This document shows, in pieces, positions 15,657-29,476 of a stretch of 64,000 nt of DNA. A program made the position numbers and the translations under genes. The notes beneath the pieces were generated by a model. The model saw nothing but the letters and a program-made list of their open reading frames with translations, was not told the origin of the DNA and did not search any database. The stretch is from Alphaproteobacteria bacterium (GTDB lineage Bacteria; Pseudomonadota; Alphaproteobacteria; Micavibrionales; Micavibrionaceae). Numbering within the stretch: position 1 is the first letter of the stretch; every line of letters begins with the position of its first letter. Where the stretch lies: assembly GCA_023384135.1 (NCBI GenBank), contig JAHDXS010000003.1, positions 378,728 through 442,727 on the forward strand, read 5' to 3'.

Positions 15657-16121
15657 CTAACCCTCAATATTCGTGCTCGAACCTGCGCCCGGCGGCGGAG
15701 CGGGGGGCGCGGCGGGGGCGGCCTTTTGGCCGGCCAGCAGCCCGGCGGCCACTTCCTTGTTGATGTTGATCAGAACGCTGATCTTCTCCTTCTGCGGGTC
15801 GGAGAGAATCTCAAGCTCGCGCTTGAAGATGAAATTGGCGAGGTTGATGATGTTGCTCCGCAGATCGTTGGGCCGGTTGCCTTCCGGGTTCTCAAGCGCC
15901 GTGTCGTAGAACAGCATCCAGATCTGCCGGTTATAGACCAGCGTCGCCTCAAGCAGCTCCGGCGTCCGGTTGTCCCAGTCGCGCACGAGGTCCTGCATCA
16001 TGCGCGAAGCCTTGAGCAGCACACGCCCTTCAAGCTCGCGCTGGTCGGGCGTATTCTGCTGCGCGTTCTGGTCATACGCCCCGGCAGCCTGTGAATAGGG
16101 GTTGTTATTTTTTGAGCGCAT
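15657..16121 (-). CDS. flaF: Flagellin biosynthesis regulator FlaF
   Basis: The 154-residue protein contains the FlaF core: NPYSQAAGAYDQN, then ELEGRVLLKASRMMQDL and LVYNRQIWMLFYDTALEN, then LRSNIINLANFIFKREL. In Caulobacter, FlaF promotes flagellin synthesis and secretion and opposes FlbT, which holds back flagellin mRNA. The gene overlaps the end of flbT by 17 bases, so the pair is one operon. The last 30 residues are Ala/Pro-rich and extend past the usual FlaF length of about 115-130. Confidence 0.93.
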   Translation of the reverse strand: MRSKNNNPYSQAAGAYDQNAQQNTPDQRELEGRVLLKASRMMQDLVRDWDNRTPELLEATLVYNRQIWMLFYDTALENPEGNRPNDLRSNIINLANFIFKRELEILSDPQKEKISVLININKEVAAGLLAGQKAAPAAPPAPPPGAGSSTNIEG

Positions 16122-16497
16122 TGTCGATTAATTCCCTCTCATGGTCGATCAGTTGCCGCGCCACCTTCAGAGCCTTGTAATAGGAATCCGAAATAATGTG
16201 GTCGTTGATTTGCATGAAGAAAATCGAGCTCGACGGCGAGGCGGTCTGAATTTCCCGCACCATGTCGAAATATTTCTTGTGATACTCCCTCGGCGCGCGC
16301 GCCAGGTACATACACTGGATCAGGAAATAGATTCTCTTGCACGGCGTATCGGCCTCGTCTTCCTTCATGACGTCTTTTTCACGCAGAATGGGCGCATCCC
16401 CGGCAATCTGAAACCGGGCGCGCTGGGCCCCGTTGGTGATCACGGCCTCCCCGATAAGAATTTTCTCGTTCGGCTTTAAATCGATCACCAGCGCCAT
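16105..16497 (-). CDS. flbT: Flagellin mRNA regulator FlbT
   Basis: The 130-residue product matches FlbT throughout: LKPNEKILIGEAVITNG, then CKRIYFLIQCMYLA and a long helical C-terminus ending in ALKVARQLIDHERELI. In Caulobacter, FlbT binds the 5' leader of flagellin mRNA and destabilises it until the hook is complete. Here the flagellin gene lies 700 bases upstream on the same strand and its leader has a hairpin (18942-18960). flbT is the first gene of the flbT-flaF operon. Confidence 0.94.
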   Translation of the reverse strand: MALVIDLKPNEKILIGEAVITNGAQRARFQIAGDAPILREKDVMKEDEADTPCKRIYFLIQCMYLARAPREYHKKYFDMVREIQTASPSSSIFFMQINDHIISDSYYKALKVARQLIDHERELIDNALKK

Positions 16498-17153: not shown

Positions 17154-17184
17154 AAAGCCGGCGGATTTCTTCCGCCGGCTTTTT
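17154..17184. terminator. Bidirectional terminator between the secreted protein gene and flagellin
   Basis: AAAGCCGGCGGA (17154-17165) and TCCGCCGGCTTT (17171-17182) form a perfect 12-base-pair stem with a five-base loop. T residues follow on the right and A residues precede on the left, so it can end transcripts from both converging genes. Confidence 0.92.
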
Positions 17185-17212
17185 GTAGAGGAGTAGAATA
17201 AGAATTTCGGTT

Positions 17213-18913
17213 TTAGAACAACCGGAGAACCGCCTGCTGCGACTGGGAAGCCAGTGCAAGAGAGGTAACGCCCAAGGTCTGCCGTGTTTGCAGAGCGAGC
17301 AGGTTTGCGCCTTCCTCGTTCTGGTCTGCAACGATCAGCTTGTCCGATCCTTCTTCCAGGTTGTTGATGGTGTTCTTCGTGAAGTCTTCGCGGGTCTGGA
17401 TGATCGCAAGATCGTTCGCGATGCTGTTACCGAAACGGCGGACCGTGTCGGTGGCTTCGCGGATCTCGTTGATCGCCTGATCCACGCTGTCGATCCGTCC
17501 GAAGTTAGCCTCGGAAAGACCCAGACCGCCGGAGGTAAATACGACGCCTTCGGTGACGAGGAAGCTGGAACGGTCTTCGTTGAAGAACGTAGACAGGTCA
17601 TCGCCGTTCAGAAGGTTCGTACCCCGGTATCCGGCATCGCCCACCAGCTCGTCGATCTGGTTGAGGATATTGGTGTATTCCTCTTCCAAAGTCGCCAGCT
17701 CGCCGGCCGCAGAGCCGAGAAGCAGGTTTTCGAACTGGGCGTTGGCCGCCGTAGCCGAAGTAAGGGCCGCCGTACCGAAGCCAATATCAAGTGCGTCGTT
17801 GGCCGCGTTACCGGTAAACCCGATCTGCACGGTTTTAACGCTCGCATCGACCGCCCGTATGGTGATCTGACCGGCCTCGTCGTCAAACGTCGCCTCGACC
17901 AGCTCGTTAAGGCTGGTGTTGGTGTTGATCGTGTCGATAAAGCTTTGGATGGTCGCGCCGTTCAAGGTGAACGACACGGCCGTTCCGCCGTTAACGCCAA
18001 TCGAGAACGTGTCGCCGGCGTTGTTGATGCCGGTGTTGAGCGCCGCTCCCGCATTGTCGGTCAAAGCGGAGATCAGATCGCTTCGCTCGGCCACATCGCC
18101 CGCGGCTTCGAAAAGCGCGAAGGAGGTGAGGGCCGGAGAAGCAAGCGAGGTCACTTCGACGTTGTTGGTGCCGTTGCCGCCGTCGGCGCGGATCAGGGCC
18201 AGATCGGCGAAGCCGAGGGCCTGAGCGAGACCGAGGTTGGCGGCGTCGGTGCCGGCAGCCGTCAGGAAGTTGATCCGTACGTCGCCGCCATTCAGCGATT
18301 TGATTTCCAGATTGCCCTCGGAGTCAAGACGCGCCTCAACCACACGTTCGGTGAGGTTGTTGTTGTCATTGATTTCCGCGATGATCTGCTCGATCGAATC
18401 GTTGGTGTTGAAGGTGATCGTAAGATCCTGTTGGTTGGCGTTGACGGTGTCGAAGTCAACGAGAGCGCCCGCCGTCGTGGAGTCAGGATCGGTAACGGAG
18501 ATAACGATCGTGTCGGTGTCAGTGATGCCGTTGACGCTTGTCACGTTGGTCACGCCGCTCAGATCGCGGTTACCCGTGACCTTGGCTTCGGTTTGACCGC
18601 CGGCAAGGGCGTCACGGGCCTGCGTGGCAACGGAATCGGCCTGCTCGATCAGATTGAGCAAGGACGAAACGGCGTTGTCGGCCGCTTTGATGGTCTGGAT
18701 CGACTGTCCGATCCCGTCCAGAAGACGGGTCAGGTCACTCGCGCGGTTGTTAAGACTTTGCGCGGCGAAGAAGTTCTGCGCGTTGTCCAGAGCGGAGTTA
18801 ACCTTCAGACCCGTTGCGAGACGGAGCTGGGTTTGGTCGATCAATTTTTGGGTATTTTGCAGCGAGAGCAGGTTATTGCGCAATGCTGCGGTAAGAACTA
18901 CATCGGATGACAT
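17213..18913 (-). CDS. Flagellin
   Basis: The 566-residue protein has flagellin D0/D1 helices at both ends: ALRNNLLSLQNTQKLIDQTQ and RLATGLKVNSALDNAQNFFA at the N-terminus, and SIANDLAIIQTREDFTKNTI and LALASQSQQAVLRLF at the C-terminus. The middle (residues about 115-420) is a large variable region with two segments that resemble flagellin IN motifs (DLTITFNTNDSIEQIIAEIN and AVSFTLNGATIQSFIDTINT, each followed by two beta strands). Filament export ends are intact. It is the only flagellin in the window. An AAGGAG ribosome site, a leader hairpin and a CtrA-type promoter precede it; a TPR-methyltransferase gene is divergent. Confidence 0.96.
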   Translation of the reverse strand: MSSDVVLTAALRNNLLSLQNTQKLIDQTQLRLATGLKVNSALDNAQNFFAAQSLNNRASDLTRLLDGIGQSIQTIKAADNAVSSLLNLIEQADSVATQARDALAGGQTEAKVTGNRDLSGVTNVTSVNGITDTDTIVISVTDPDSTTAGALVDFDTVNANQQDLTITFNTNDSIEQIIAEINDNNNLTERVVEARLDSEGNLEIKSLNGGDVRINFLTAAGTDAANLGLAQALGFADLALIRADGGNGTNNVEVTSLASPALTSFALFEAAGDVAERSDLISALTDNAGAALNTGINNAGDTFSIGVNGGTAVSFTLNGATIQSFIDTINTNTSLNELVEATFDDEAGQITIRAVDASVKTVQIGFTGNAANDALDIGFGTAALTSATAANAQFENLLLGSAAGELATLEEEYTNILNQIDELVGDAGYRGTNLLNGDDLSTFFNEDRSSFLVTEGVVFTSGGLGLSEANFGRIDSVDQAINEIREATDTVRRFGNSIANDLAIIQTREDFTKNTINNLEEGSDKLIVADQNEEGANLLALQTRQTLGVTSLALASQSQQAVLRLF

Positions 18914-18941
18914 AGTAGTACTCCTTTCCTAGGGTGATATA

Positions 18942-18960
18942 CCGGAAAATCCTATTCCGG
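18942..18960 (-). promoter_or_regulatory. Hairpin in the flagellin mRNA leader
   Basis: CCGGAA (18942-18947) and TTCCGG (18955-18960) form a six-base-pair stem with a seven-base loop, 29-47 bases before the flagellin start codon and just upstream of the ribosome binding site. Because FlbT in Caulobacter acts on the flagellin leader, this is a reasonable candidate target. Confidence 0.5.
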
Positions 18961-18975
18961 CCTTAAGACTCTAGA

Positions 18976-19116: not shown

Positions 19117-21375
19117 ATGGCGGTAAAAAAGGCAAAAAAAGGCTCGAAAACATCCTCGGCGGCGGCAAAACCCGAAAAGCTGGATTACAACCTGTCCGCA
19201 AAGAAAATCGCCGAGCTTGAGAATTCCTTCAAAAAGACCCAGAAACCGGAGCTTTTGACCCAGATCGCCGAACTGTATTTCTCCATCGGCAGCCTGGAGC
19301 CCGCCTTCGCTTTCTTCACGAAGGCATCCACCATAGACCCCGGGAACTATAGCAATTACAAGGGGATCGCAGATTGCCTTGTGATTACGCAGCGGGCGGA
19401 AGAGGCGTTAGAATACTATCGTATGGCCTTGAATCTGAACCCCGAAGCCGAAATCGTCCGCACCAGCTACGGCCACACACTGATGCACCTCAAGAAATAC
19501 GAAGAAGCCGCAAAAATCTACGAGGAAGGGTTGAAATTAAACGACTCGGGTGAGGCCAATAATAATGTCGGCGTCCTGTTGTTCGAGACCAAAAATTATA
19601 AACAATCCGTCGTGTTTTTTAATAAAGCGGTCGAAAAGGACCCGAAGAACAAGAATTTCCGTATTAACCTCGCGCGCGCGTATTTCCGGGGCGAAAAATA
19701 CAACGACGCCTTCTTTACGCTCCACGCCGCGCTAAAGGTGGACCCCGGCAGCGCCTTCATAAAATCCCAGCTCAGCGCGATGGGCCGCCACCTGTCCTTC
19801 TCGACCTTCTCACAGGACCTTAAAGACGCCCTGATCGCCTGCCTGAATATCGAGAACATTGAGCATCACAACCTCTCGGTCGTCTGGCTCCGCCTGTTCC
19901 TGATGGACCCGGCCTACACTTATATTCATAAATTAACGAAGCTCCATAACTACGATGATTTTAAAGGCGAAGCCGACCTTTATAAAATCTGCGCCCTGAT
20001 GTCTGACGATTTCTGCGCGCAAGCGCTGCGGCTGATCTACAATCAGGCCGTCGATTATGAAATTTTCCTCGGCAACCTCCGCCGCCTCGCGGGGGAGCAT
20101 ATAGGGCAGGGTGCCGGTAAAACCGCTTCGTCCAAAGACTCAAAGACGCTCTTTAAAATACTGTGTGCACTGGCTGAAAACTTTTTTGTCCATGAATATC
20201 CCGCCGCCATGTCAAACGCGGAGGAGGGCGCCTTGGGTCCCCTTCGGCAGGAAATTCTGGACATCGGCAAGAACGATCCCGGCCCCTGCGCCCTGCGCCT
20301 CGCCCTTCTGGCCTGTTACGGGCCGCTTCATAAGGAGCAAGCGGAGATCGTGGCGCTCGCCCGCGCGCTGCCCGATGACCTCCACCCCTTCTGGAAAAGC
20401 CTCGTCGCGCTGCAGATCGCCGAACCGCTGGAGGAACTCCGCCTGCGCTCCACCATCCCCGCGCTGGGCCGCCTGCAAAACGAAGTCTCCCTCAAGGTCC
20501 GCGAACAGTACGAGGAAAACCCTTACCCCCGCTGGCGCTACGCGAACGCCCAGGAGGACGAATCCAAAAGCTACCACTTCAAGAAACCCTACGATCTCCT
20601 CATCGCCGGCTGCGGCACGGGCAAACAGGTGCTCCAGGAACGCTATATGTACCCGAACGCCAAAATCACGGCGATCGACCTCAGCCTTTCAAGCATTTCC
20701 TACGCGAAACGAAAGATTCAGGAACTCGGCATCGGCGACGTGGAGTTCATGCAGGCCGACATCCTCGAACTCGGCCAGTTGAATAAAAAATTCGACTTCA
20801 TCGCCTGCTCGGGCGTGCTCCATCACATGCAGGAGCCCGAAGCCGGTCTGAAAGTGCTATTGTCCCTTCTGAAGCCCAAGGGCCTGATGAATATCGGGCT
20901 CTATAGCGAACGCGCCCGCCAAACGGTGGTAAAGCTGCGCAACCTCGTGGCCGAAAAGGGCTGGCAGCCGAATACCGCGGGCATCCACGCCTTCCGTGAT
21001 TATATTAACAACCTCCCGCCCGACCATGAGCTGCGCTACGTCACCCGCTGGCGCGATTATTACTCCATGTCGATGGTCCGCGATCTCATTTTCCACGTGC
21101 AGGAACACCGCTACACCTTCCCGCAGCTGGACGATATGTTCAAACGCCACGGCCTCGCCTTCGTCGATTTCTCGTTCATCTTCCCCGATGTTCTGGCCAA
21201 TTTCCTGCGCAAGCATCCGGGGCCTGAGAATTACCGTAACTTCGAACTTTGGGACGCCTTCGAGCGCAAGCACCCCGAATCCTTCGCCTCAATGTACCAG
21301 CTTTGGGTGTGCCGCGAAGAGGCCCGCGATGAAATCCTCGCCGCCCCGAAAATCATTAATGCGCTGGAGGTTTAA
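19117..21375 (+). CDS. TPR-methyltransferase fusion, possible flagellin modification enzyme
   Basis: The 752-residue protein has a Lys-rich start, about five tetratricopeptide repeats in residues 35-225 (for example ALEYYRMALNLNPEAEIVRT), a helical middle, and a class I SAM-dependent methyltransferase from about residue 485. Motif I is LLIAGCGTG (about 494-502), followed by the acidic loop AIDLS and a DFIACSGVLHHM segment typical of small-molecule or protein methylases. It is divergent from flagellin and shares its 200-base control region. By analogy with TPR-glycosyltransferases that recognise flagellin (FlmG type) it may modify flagellin, but that is inference; the true substrate is unknown. 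Its stop overlaps the next gene by four bases. Confidence 0.85.
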   Translation: MAVKKAKKGSKTSSAAAKPEKLDYNLSAKKIAELENSFKKTQKPELLTQIAELYFSIGSLEPAFAFFTKASTIDPGNYSNYKGIADCLVITQRAEEALEYYRMALNLNPEAEIVRTSYGHTLMHLKKYEEAAKIYEEGLKLNDSGEANNNVGVLLFETKNYKQSVVFFNKAVEKDPKNKNFRINLARAYFRGEKYNDAFFTLHAALKVDPGSAFIKSQLSAMGRHLSFSTFSQDLKDALIACLNIENIEHHNLSVVWLRLFLMDPAYTYIHKLTKLHNYDDFKGEADLYKICALMSDDFCAQALRLIYNQAVDYEIFLGNLRRLAGEHIGQGAGKTASSKDSKTLFKILCALAENFFVHEYPAAMSNAEEGALGPLRQEILDIGKNDPGPCALRLALLACYGPLHKEQAEIVALARALPDDLHPFWKSLVALQIAEPLEELRLRSTIPALGRLQNEVSLKVREQYEENPYPRWRYANAQEDESKSYHFKKPYDLLIAGCGTGKQVLQERYMYPNAKITAIDLSLSSISYAKRKIQELGIGDVEFMQADILELGQLNKKFDFIACSGVLHHMQEPEAGLKVLLSLLKPKGLMNIGLYSERARQTVVKLRNLVAEKGWQPNTAGIHAFRDYINNLPPDHELRYVTRWRDYYSMSMVRDLIFHVQEHRYTFPQLDDMFKRHGLAFVDFSFIFPDVLANFLRKHPGPENYRNFELWDAFERKHPESFASMYQLWVCREEARDEILAAPKIINALEV

Positions 21376-22037
21376 ACCGCCTCGCTCAAACTCTGATCCG
21401 CCCGCGCTTCGGAGAGGCTCAGGCCCCGCACCCGGCTCAGTCCCTTGAGAAAGACGGTATGAACACTCAGCATAATAAGCTCGCCGCCATCCTCCACCAC
21501 GACCGGAACATGCAGAACATCAAGCCCGACCGAGAAAAACGCCAGCCCCGCGAACAGCCCGCACAGCACAAGGCTGCTAAGCCGCTCGGCGTCAGGCACG
21601 GCCTTGAAAACCTTGAAAAACGCCAGCAGCATGATCAGCCCGAAAACCGACAGCGCGATAAACTGCCCGAAATGATCCGCCAGCCCGTAAGGCTCCAGCG
21701 CGTGCCCGGCCCCCTCATGCAGGGAAAAAGCGTTGTCGGTCATCGCCGCGAAATAGACAAACGCAAAGAAACCATAAGTTCCAGACCCCGTCACGCGCCA
21801 CAGCCGCAGGGCCATGAGGCCGCAGACCGCCGTAAGCAGATATTCTAACATCTCGGGAATGCCCCATTCGGTCGAGAGATTCCACGGGCTGGGGGTGCGA
21901 ATGGCCGCAGGCTCCCCAAGGTGGCTGAACGCATCGGCCATATGCCCGGCCAGCAGCGCGGAATCAATAGCCAGTAACCCGGCCAGAAGACAGGTTTCAA
22001 ATCTGTAAGTCCTGAAAAGTCTCAAAAAAACACTCAT
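21372..22037 (-). CDS. Integral membrane protein of unknown function
   Basis: About 221 residues with five to six hydrophobic segments (CLLAGLLAIDSALLAGHM; MLEYLLTAVCGLMALRLW; GFFAFVYFAAMTDNAF; FIALSVFGLIMLLAFF; LVLCGLFAGLAFFSVGLDVL). A histidine and several acidic residues sit near membrane boundaries (SLHEGAGHALEPYGLADHFG). I do not recognise the family. The ATG at 22037 is chosen over an in-frame TTG at 22046; neither has a strong ribosome site. It is convergent with the TPR-methyltransferase gene, overlapping it by four bases. Confidence 0.7.
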   Translation of the reverse strand: MSVFLRLFRTYRFETCLLAGLLAIDSALLAGHMADAFSHLGEPAAIRTPSPWNLSTEWGIPEMLEYLLTAVCGLMALRLWRVTGSGTYGFFAFVYFAAMTDNAFSLHEGAGHALEPYGLADHFGQFIALSVFGLIMLLAFFKVFKAVPDAERLSSLVLCGLFAGLAFFSVGLDVLHVPVVVEDGGELIMLSVHTVFLKGLSRVRGLSLSEARADQSLSEAV

Positions 22038-22263
22038 GACAATCAATCTTTAAAAATAAGTGCGCTTCGGCGCGGGTTATTAATTGCTGCAACGCAATAT
22101 AATTTTCGTAATAAGGGAAACTGCAAAAGAAAATTACTCTCATAAATCAACGGCTTTTGGCAACAACTTTTAGTATAAAATGAAAAAATTCATGCAAGCG
22201 TAGGGGGAAAATGCAGGTTTGAGGCAGATACTGGTAGGGAAGTCAAGCGGGGACAATAAGAAT

Positions 22264-22322
22264 AAAAAAAGGACGCACCGGGAGGGTCGCAAGACCGTTG
22301 GAGAGAGAGCCCCGGTGCGTCC
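22264..22322 (-). terminator. Rho-independent terminator after flgE and the candidate RNA
   Basis: A perfect 12-base-pair stem (22322-22311 with 22282-22271) encloses an inner GGTC/GACC hairpin (22296-22293 with 22288-22285) and is followed, leftward, by seven T residues. It would end the flgI-to-flgE operon as well as any shorter RNA. Confidence 0.85.
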
Positions 22323-22427
22323 AGCCTGCGAAAGGGCCGCCCGTTCTGGGCGAATCCGCTCCGCATCGTGGAAACCGTGAAATCCGGTGGTCAGGGACGA
22401 ATCTCGTCGCCGGACAAACGGCTTCCT
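22264..22427 (-). ncRNA. Candidate structured small RNA downstream of flgE
   Basis: Read leftward, this stretch folds into three successive hairpins and ends in seven U residues. Hairpin 1 has an outer nine-pair stem (22426-22418 with 22378-22370), an inner six-pair stem (22415-22410 with 22387-22382) and an apical five-pair stem (22408-22404 with 22400-22396). Hairpin 2 pairs 22352-22348 with 22342-22338. Hairpin 3 is the terminator. In the first two stems the leftward strand gives G-U pairs where the rightward strand would give A-C mismatches, which favours a leftward RNA. A -10-like TAGAAT (22434-22429) sits just upstream. No -35 is convincing, so processing from the flgE transcript is also possible. 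No protein is credible here. The rest of 22038-22500 holds a repeat (22440-22475) and no gene. Confidence 0.55.
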
Positions 22428-22439
22428 TATTCTATCGTC

Positions 22440-22475
22440 TCCCGGGGCATCCCCGCGAAAGCGGGGATCCACCCG
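22440..22475. repeat. Interspersed palindrome, GCATCCCCGCGAAAGCGGGGATCC type
   Basis: The core ATCCCCGC/GCGGGGAT is an inverted repeat around GAAA. Related copies occur at 40755-40783, 54650-54676, 54708-54733 and, inverted, 57285-57312. Confidence 0.75.
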
Positions 22476-22500
22476 GAAGCCTTAACCCTTAAAGCCGCGC

Positions 22501-24234
22501 TTACCGCAGCTGCAGTAGCTCCTGCGTCATCTGGTCCACGGTGTTGATGACCTTCGTACCGGCGGAATAGGCCCGCTGGGCGACGATCAGTTGCGCGAAC
22601 TCGTCCGCAAGGTCCACGTTGGAGTTTTCAAGCGTAGAGGGCTCAAGGAAGCCCGCGCCGCCCGTTCCGGCCTCACGCAGGTTTTCCTCCCCGGAATCTT
22701 CCGTCTCCGTATAGGCCGTTCCCGAAACCTCGCGCAGCCCGTTCGGGTTGGCGAAGGTGACAAGCGGCAGTTTATAAAGCCGCGTGGTCGCGCCGTTCGA
22801 GAACTGGGCGATCACGAACCCCTCCCGGTCGATCTGCACCCCGGTCCGCAAGCCGAGTTCCGCGCCGTTCTGATCGGAGAACAGAACCGTGTAATCGCTT
22901 GAAAACTGGCTGAAGCTTGAGACGTTGATATCGATGTTTTGCAACTCCGAACCGTTGCCCCAGTTAATGTTGGAAAGCTCGATGTCGATATTCCCCTCAT
23001 TGTCGGGCAGGGCGTTCAGCGTCCCGTCGCCGTTGAAGTTGACGAGGCCGACCGAGAGCGAGTTATTGTTCGGGTCCATGATCCGCATCTGCCACCAGCC
23101 GCGCGGGTTATAGAGCGGGTCACCCGGAAGGAACTGCACGGCGGGGAACTCGCCGCCGCTATAGGGCGGGGAGTCCGCGAACGTACCGTTCGAGTAGTTG
23201 CCCGAGGTGCCGATATCGTCGGAGACGAAGGCGCCGGCGGTGAACCCAAGCTCGGAGAGCGGTGTGCCCACCGTGTTGGCGATGGTCAAAGTCTCCGTGC
23301 CGGTCACGAACTCGTTATGCTGAATGACGATCTCGCCGTTATTCCCGATGAACGCCGTGGCATCCGTCAGCCCCGCGTTAATCGCGTTGATGATATCGCC
23401 GACCGTTTCCACGCCCGTCGCGCCGCCGCCGACTGCGCCGCCGTCATTGACCTCAAGCGTGATGGTCGTAGTGCCGTCATTGACCGTAAACCGGTCGCCG
23501 TCCGTCATGCCGAGATTGGTAATCAGGTTCGTGGCCGCCGTCTGGTTGGCCAGCGTGGAAATCGCTGCCGCCTGCGGCCCGTAGGTCTTGGAGAACTGGA
23601 AGGTCAGGTTCTGCGGGTTGCCCAGTGTATCGTAAACCGTCAATCCTCGGGAGAAGTCCGGCTGCCCGGCCAGAACGGAGGCGAAATCCGCGTCCACCTC
23701 CGCCGCGTCAAGGTTCACGGCCAGCTCCGCCGTCGTCGTCGGACGCGTCAATCCGCCCAGAAACGCAACGTCGATCGGCACCAGCGAGTCCAGATCCCCC
23801 TGGTTGGCGGGCAGGGCGCCGTTCACGTCCAGCGGCCATCCGTAAAGGAAGAACCCGGCGGAGTTTCTGAGGAACCCTTGCGAGTCCTCGCTGAACTGCC
23901 CGTTCCGCGTATAAAGGAACTCGGTCAGCGCGCTGTCGAGCGAGTCCCGCTTCACCGCGAAGAACCCCTTGCCAGAAACCGACGCATCCGTCGAGGATTC
24001 CGACTGCGAAATCGGCCCCTGCTGCGAAACGCGCTGAATGCGGTTCACGGTGACCGTTCCCGGCGAATACCGCGACGTGTTGGTCGAGGTCGTCACAAGG
24101 CTGAAGAACGAAGCTTCCGAGCGCTTGAACCCGTTCGTGTTGACGTTGGCGATGTTGTTGGAGATGATCGCCGTTTTCTGCGACTGCGCAGACAGGGCTG
24201 AAACCCCTGTGAACAATGCTCCGAAAAGTCCCAT
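22501..24234 (-). CDS. flgE: Flagellar hook protein FlgE
   Basis: The 577-residue protein has the hook/rod N-terminal helix (MGLFGALFTGVSALSAQSQK, then ISNNIANVNTNGFKRSEASF) and the matching C-terminal helix (AQRAYSAGTKVINTVDQMTQ, then ELLQLR). It polymerises into the hook. It is longer than E. coli FlgE (402 residues); a middle segment around residues 240-345 (FTVNDGTTTITLEVNDGG, then VGDIINAIN and NGEIVIQHNEF) resembles the flagellin IN motif. It is the last gene of the leftward operon that starts at flgI and is followed by a strong terminator. Confidence 0.95.
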   Translation of the reverse strand: MGLFGALFTGVSALSAQSQKTAIISNNIANVNTNGFKRSEASFFSLVTTSTNTSRYSPGTVTVNRIQRVSQQGPISQSESSTDASVSGKGFFAVKRDSLDSALTEFLYTRNGQFSEDSQGFLRNSAGFFLYGWPLDVNGALPANQGDLDSLVPIDVAFLGGLTRPTTTAELAVNLDAAEVDADFASVLAGQPDFSRGLTVYDTLGNPQNLTFQFSKTYGPQAAAISTLANQTAATNLITNLGMTDGDRFTVNDGTTTITLEVNDGGAVGGGATGVETVGDIINAINAGLTDATAFIGNNGEIVIQHNEFVTGTETLTIANTVGTPLSELGFTAGAFVSDDIGTSGNYSNGTFADSPPYSGGEFPAVQFLPGDPLYNPRGWWQMRIMDPNNNSLSVGLVNFNGDGTLNALPDNEGNIDIELSNINWGNGSELQNIDINVSSFSQFSSDYTVLFSDQNGAELGLRTGVQIDREGFVIAQFSNGATTRLYKLPLVTFANPNGLREVSGTAYTETEDSGEENLREAGTGGAGFLEPSTLENSNVDLADEFAQLIVAQRAYSAGTKVINTVDQMTQELLQLR

Positions 24235-29288: not shown

Positions 29289-29476
29289 GTTTCAGGCGGG
29301 CGAAAAAGCGCGTTGTTAGTGAAAAAGAGAAGCGGCAGGAAATTTGCAAAACCGGCGCAGGGGGCGCTTTTGTCCAACCCCCTCAGGCGACTGGGCAATT
29401 CTTGCCCGCTTGCAAAGCCCGCCCCCTAAGGCGTAAACTTGAACAATGGGGACCAGACAAACGGAAAAGGAAAACC

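Follow-up and report, generated by a model that had tools for sequence, protein, structure and literature searches.

A structured RNA family 3' of the hook gene flgE in Micavibrio-type bacteria shares a hairpin loop class with flagellin leaders and may be read by FlbT

CsrB and RsmZ are protein-sequestering small RNAs that carry several GGA-loop hairpins. In Campylobacter jejuni, the leader of the flaA message contains neighboring GGA-loop hairpins at a spacing of about 20 nt, which are bound by CsrA and also act as a CsrA sponge (PMC4894983). The Escherichia coli small RNAs UhpU, MotR, FliX, and FlgO, which are sigma28 dependent and derived from untranslated regions (UTRs), tune flagella synthesis (PMC10578931). 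Binding of FlbT to flagellin mRNA dates from 2000 (Anderson and Gober 2000, via PMC4347634 and PMC3930126); the accessible parts of these sources report binding to flagellin 5' UTRs and leave the recognized element unresolved, and reviews call the mechanism unresolved. In Caulobacter, FljJ is a corepressor with FlbT (PMC7591256).

The RNA described here lies 3' of flgE, the hook protein gene, in a 2.8-Mb genome of a group that we call Micavibrio-type; relatives of this flgE include Micavibrio sp. We refer to the whole 64,000-nucleotide stretch that was analyzed as the window. Its relevant features, in the direction of transcription of flgE, are as follows.

22501 to 24234, minus strand: flgE, hook protein, with the RNA as its 3' UTR (Pfam Flg_bbr_C and FlgE_D2; synteny).
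22446 to 22472, minus strand: dispersed repeat GGATCCCCGCTTTCGCGGGGATG, a 23-base hairpin repeat with many copies in its own genome and in the order.
22426 to 22264, minus strand: the whole element, with three hairpins, a 12-pair terminator stem, and U7.
22370 to 22426, minus strand: hairpin 1 (H1), from the fold, homologues, and covariation.
22370 to 22426, minus strand: H1 outer stem, GGAAGCCGU/ACGGUUUCC plus UCCGG/CCGGA.
Within H1, minus strand: a small inner hairpin around CGACGAGAUUCGUC, then CCCUGACC.
22327 to 22365, minus strand: hairpin 2 (H2), stem UGCG/CGCA plus an apical hairpin, from the fold and covariation.
22337 to 22353, minus strand: H2 tip UCGCCC-AGAAC-GGGCGG, an AGRAN pentaloop of the class found in flagellin leaders (loop survey).
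22271 to 22322, minus strand: hairpin 3 (H3), terminator stem GGACGCACCGGG/CCCGGUGCGUCC with 12 perfect pairs, from the fold.
22264 to 22270, minus strand: U7 tail of the intrinsic terminator, from the sequence.
21372 to 22046, minus strand: open reading frame (ORF) of 224 amino acids that has no Pfam hit and separates the RNA from the methyltransferase gene.
19117 to 21375, plus strand: TPR-methyltransferase gene, an ORF between the RNA and flagellin in the window's genus.
18941 to 18961, minus strand: flagellin leader hairpin GCCGGAAU-AGGAU-UUUCCGGU with a U.U closing pair (leader reading).
18923 to 18933, minus strand: mini-hairpin CCU-AGGAA-AGG over the flagellin Shine-Dalgarno sequence (leader reading).
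17213 to 18913, minus strand: flagellin gene, downstream (Pfam Flagellin_N).
16105 to 16497, minus strand: flbT, translational regulator of flagellin (PF07378, E = 1e-43).
15657 to 16121, minus strand: flaF, beside flbT (PF07309).

A sequence-only reading had proposed a three-hairpin leftward RNA ending in a perfect 12-pair stem and seven U, and folding of positions 22440 to 22255 (minus strand) bore this out (-80.0 kcal/mol; z = -4.35), with none of 200 dinucleotide shuffles equally stable. The further claim that the segment folds on the leftward strand only did not hold, because the plus strand forms an equally strong fold (-80.2 kcal/mol; z = -3.58). The G-U pairs that had been offered as an argument for the strand therefore carry slight weight, both strands folding alike; the leftward direction itself stands, because of the U tract, the orientation shared with flgE, and the homologues. 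The comparison with Rfam that had been suggested matched no known family: the window had no match in Rfam 15 at the gathering threshold, and 12 loci of members and relatives returned nothing plausible at an E value of 10 or below. The RNA family thus appears to be undescribed, being outside Rfam and without a description that we could find in the open-access literature (most subscription papers were beyond reach).

To characterize the family, we used a covariance model (R1) built from seven sequences with the window copy left out. This model recovered the window copy with a score of 34.7 bits (E values, 6e-8 within the window and 2.6e-6 within its own genome) and matched 30 of the 104 genomes of the GTDB family, in 11 of 39 genera and at about one copy per genome; the other 74 genomes gave no match, and the rest of the order outside the family gave weak matches only. 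The flgE 3' regions of several genera follow a common plan of H1, H2, and the GC-rich terminator H3. The arms of H1 are long and genus specific in sequence yet complementary, and they surround GC-UACCCG-GC and then CCCUAACC, which in most other genera stand where the window copy has the inner hairpin around CGACGAGAUUCGUC and then CCCUGACC; in most members, these two stretches of the H1 loop are strongly conserved unpaired motifs. Across genera, H2 has a CUGCGG-type stem with an apical hairpin.

In the alignment of 21 members, 88% of cells are paired, and two-sided changes occur in 24 of the 30 modeled pairs, including all seven of the H1 outer stem; the alignment was fitted to the R1 structure and so favors it, although the arms nonetheless differ widely between genera. 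The covariation score was 0.411; shuffled alignments gave 0.195 ± 0.014, and sliding the partners gave no more than 0.14. H3 is the best-conserved helix (98% of cells paired in the 21 sequences). Comparison of the stems in relatives had been put forward as a check on the RNA, and the refuting outcome, loss without compensation, is clearly not what relatives show, because the stems covary. Homologues, synteny, and covariation together indicate that the structure is real, linked to the hook operon mRNA, and more than a bare terminator, as had been claimed.

The element adjoins the 3' side of flgE on the same strand in 29 of the 30 genomes. In the exception (G108; L159, positions 1501 to 1671), it follows an ORF that we took by eye, without a profile search, as the C-terminal part of FliK, and it still lies ahead of flagellin and flbT. 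The downstream neighbor varies: a convergent methyltransferase gene comes directly after the element in two other genomes of the window's genus (G001 and G002), and one more ORF intervenes in the window. The element is thus tied to flgE and not to the downstream gene. Within this genus, the 224-residue ORF, the TPR-methyltransferase gene, or both separate the RNA from flagellin, and L160 and L168 have another methyltransferase-like match at the equivalent place.

The tip of H2 in the window, CGCCC-AGAAC-GGGCG, has an AGRAN pentaloop. In an unbiased count of pentaloops over 48 flgE 3' regions, AGAAN and AGGAN ranked first; hairpins with an AG[AGT]AN loop and a stem of at least 4 pairs were present in 31 of the 48 (shuffle mean, 2.6; maximum, 6), and the AGRAN loop was about 12-fold above shuffles. 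Of the 30 aligned entries of R1 matches (including one antisense hit), 21 had an AGRA(N) hairpin with a stem of at least 4 pairs, usually at the H2 tip, against a shuffle expectation of 1.2. Most carriers have one such hairpin, in H2, and a second is rare. In G001 and G002, the RNA is present but its tip is not clearly AGRAN, and no such hairpin of this stem length occurs in some other members. The window as a whole has no general excess of AGRAN-type loops.

The flagellin leaders of the same genomes carry short hairpins whose loops read AGGAU, AGGAC, AGUAU, or AGAAC and whose stems vary in sequence, as well as CCU-AGGAA-AGG across the Shine-Dalgarno sequence. The same unbiased count over 31 of these leaders placed AGGAN and AGUAN first, with such a hairpin (stem of at least 4 pairs) in 23 leaders versus a shuffle value of 1.15. 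At least two of these hairpins occur in 26 of the 31 leaders, at a median spacing of 22 nt. A strong hairpin whose loop reads AGAAA also lies directly 3' of the flagellin gene (17155 to 17185, minus strand). The appearance of one pentaloop class in both H2 and the flagellin leaders points toward a protein ligand no less than toward antisense pairing.

Two extensions of this pattern were considered and set aside. The flgI leader did not prove to be a general additional target: of 30 upstream regions, 6 have an AGRA hairpin (stem of at least 5 pairs), and the window's genus accounts for three of these. The window itself has a GGGCA-AGAAU-UGCCC hairpin at 29402 (minus strand), where flgI and a fliX-like ORF diverge; the genus's two other genomes keep this hairpin (as GGGUA-AGAAU-UGCCU), but it does not extend beyond the genus. 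An AGRAN hairpin 3' of flgE as an alphaproteobacterial rule was likewise rejected: among 28 other alphaproteobacterial loci, all outside Micavibrionales, the element is absent and two hairpin hits were found, one of them within coding sequence.

To place the leader hairpins in a wider setting, we examined 66 flagellin leaders (41 loci) near flbT in 60 other alphaproteobacterial genomes. AAAAN and AGAAN were the commonest pentaloops, and hairpins with an A[AG]NAN loop and a stem of at least 5 pairs occurred in 25 of the 66 leaders (shuffle mean, 1.7). In these FlbT-bearing Alphaproteobacteria (L205 to L264), the flagellin ribosome site is often enclosed in a CC-AGAAN-GG or CCU-AGGAA-AGG mini-hairpin; in some cases, GGGC-AAAAN-GCCC and GAGC-AAAAN-GCUC hairpins stand ahead of it. 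A ribosome-site hairpin (e.g., CC-AGAAU-GG) was present in 56 of 97 leaders from FlbT genomes versus 1 of 38 controls (Fisher P = 3e-10), and a hairpin with a stem of at least 5 pairs anywhere in the leader was present in 47 of 97 versus 5 of 38 (P = 1.4e-4); both P values ignore kinship, several leaders come from the same genomes, and the 38 control leaders are those of 13 FlbT-less alphaproteobacteria and of 25 other (beta- and gamma-) proteobacteria that were assumed to be FlbT-less. Many FlbT-bearing genomes have no AGRAN hairpin in the flagellin leader.

CsrA was rejected as the reader, being undetected (PF02599) in all 29 genomes searched (the window genome and 28 relatives). The predicted structure of FlbT (mean pLDDT, 95) has five N-terminal strands followed by helices; the strands run in the same order as those of CsrA, and the first 40 residues look CsrA-like by eye. 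The Pfam CsrA profile matched a fragment of the window's FlbT weakly (E = 0.095), start to start and in register, and the comparison of FlbT with CsrA by hhalign was also weak (P = 0.02). By fold, neither Foldseek nor VIA-align matched FlbT convincingly to CsrA or to any other RNA-binding protein: CsrA is not among their rows, and the rows that they do list, TRAP (Z = 2.7) for example, are weak. Because CsrA forms a domain-swapped dimer, its absence from these searches is not decisive, and a distant kinship of FlbT with CsrA is kept as a lead.

The RNA family, its covariation, its linkage to flgE, the common loop class, and the association of ribosome-site hairpins with FlbT genomes are all read from sequence. 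The common loop class suggests a single RNA-binding regulator, most likely FlbT, for the hook-gene RNA and the flagellin messages. Our preferred reading, which we hold tentatively and at slightly less than an even chance, is that the hook operon 3' UTR bears a copy of the flagellin-leader recognition element that FlbT would read, possibly as a decoy. FlbT as the reader, its binding to the flgE RNA, decoy action, and processing to a free RNA are inferences. In such a mechanism, transcription of the hook operon, of which flgE is the last gene, would yield a 3' UTR with three hairpins and its own terminator, perhaps released as a stable small RNA. H2 displays the pentaloop that is also an element of flagellin leaders, where it often occurs in tandem and covers the ribosome site. 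FlbT would bind both the flagellin leader and the flgE RNA, so that hook transcription would supply extra FlbT sites and draw FlbT off flagellin mRNA; alternatively, FlbT might act on the hook mRNA as well. One binding site per transcript makes a modest decoy, and a FlbT decoy gives no role to H1 or its conserved CCC loops. Nor does the element belong to the FlbT circuit in general, since the flgE 3' regions examined outside Micavibrionales lack it and R1 matched nothing in 74 of the 104 family genomes.

A broader proposal, possible though doubtful, is that AG(A/G)AN and related AARAN pentaloops are the FlbT recognition element of alphaproteobacterial flagellin mRNAs. The Micavibrionales hook 3' UTR would then hold an mRNA-borne decoy copy, hook mRNA synthesis would release flagellin translation, and FlbT might be distantly CsrA-like.

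The best-placed alternative, which we nonetheless consider unlikely, is that the element acts purely in cis: through its AGRAN hairpin, FlbT or a different factor would control how stable the hook operon mRNA is, with no titration in trans. A terminator-ended element within the flgE 3' UTR, with one site per transcript, fits such a role. However, the elaborate H1 with its conserved loop would be superfluous, and G108 carries the element after a fliK-like gene, not after flgE, but still ahead of flagellin and flbT.

Quite improbable is a base-pairing small RNA in which C-rich single strands (UACCC, CCCUAACC, and AACCCAACC) would be seeds against purine-rich ribosome sites, the AGRAN tip being incidental or a chaperone site. 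GC-UACCC and CCUAACC are indeed the best-conserved stretches of H1 in most members, and the window copy has a terminator with a U tract, yet UACCC is largely lost from the window's H1. Pairing of the H1 loop with the genome's own flagellin leader, the sole target compared, was no better than in shuffles (mean z = +0.39), and an antisense role of the H1 loop against that leader was rejected. The CUCUCUCUCC loop of the terminator, which the sequence-only reading had cast as antisense to ribosome sites, is not kept outside the window's genus.

An independent small RNA gene with its own promoter beside flgE is very improbable. The element is compact, conserved, and terminator-ended, and a TAGAAT hexamer at 22433 had been read as a -10 element. 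However, no sigma-70-like promoter was found at 22000 to 22800, and the hexamer was not seen ahead of the element in G001 and G002. H1 begins 15 to 132 nt past the flgE stop, mostly 15 to 30 nt, so that in most members a promoter would fall inside flgE. In the window, the 74-nt spacer between the stop and H1 holds the dispersed repeat, which was ruled out as part of the element, being scattered in many relatives and mostly absent beside it. Given the short distance to flgE and the lack of a detected sigma-70 promoter, the simplest reading is an element of the flgE 3' UTR or a small RNA derived from it, and an independent gene is less likely; of the two origins that had been left open, the tie to the hook operon mRNA is supported and a promoter at TAGAAT is not.

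Least probable is a strong terminator or mRNA-stabilizing structure without a specific partner: H3 is the best-conserved helix and a simple terminator alone follows flgE in G009 and G024, but H1 and H2 covary, specific unpaired motifs are kept across 11 genera, and the AGRAN excess over shuffles is not matched upstream of flgI or in the flgE 3' regions of other alphaproteobacteria.

The element adds to Micavibrio-type bacteria an RNA family that appears to be undescribed. A hairpin class common to flagellin leaders and an otherwise unrelated hook-gene RNA also supplies a recognition element that is concrete and open to test, and it suggests that hook and filament expression are linked through RNA, in a way comparable to CsrA-FliW in other bacteria. 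Compared with the Caulobacter FlbT system (Anderson and Gober 2000, via PMC4347634 and PMC3930126), the regulator family and the flagellin leader target are the same, whereas the accessible parts of the sources on that system (PMC4347634, PMC3930126, and PMC7591256) describe no hook-gene RNA or recognition motif. CsrB and RsmZ resemble the proposed mechanism in that the element would work through copies of a target hairpin loop on a separate RNA; it differs from them in having mostly one AGRAN hairpin per RNA and not many, in lying within an mRNA 3' UTR, and in its reader, CsrA/RsmA (PF02599) having been found in 0 of 29 genomes. As in E. coli UhpU, MotR, FliX, and FlgO (PMC10578931), the RNA comes from a UTR, most of those being from flagellar genes, and like a 3'-UTR-derived flagellar small RNA it lies within a flagellar mRNA 3' UTR and is ended by the terminator of that mRNA; the characterized E. 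coli RNAs base-pair, whereas the common feature here is a candidate protein-binding loop. With CsrA/FliW and C. jejuni flaA (PMC4894983), the proposed mechanism shares repressor-bound hairpins in a flagellin leader and a flagellar mRNA that titrates the repressor. Unlike in C. jejuni, CsrA is undetected here, FlbT is the proposed reader, the loops are pentaloops of the AGRAN type and not CANGGANG hexaloops, and the hook gene 3' UTR, not the flagellin leader, is the candidate sponge. The element would thus work like known kinds, namely, UTR-derived flagellar RNAs and CsrA sponges, but with a different likely reader.
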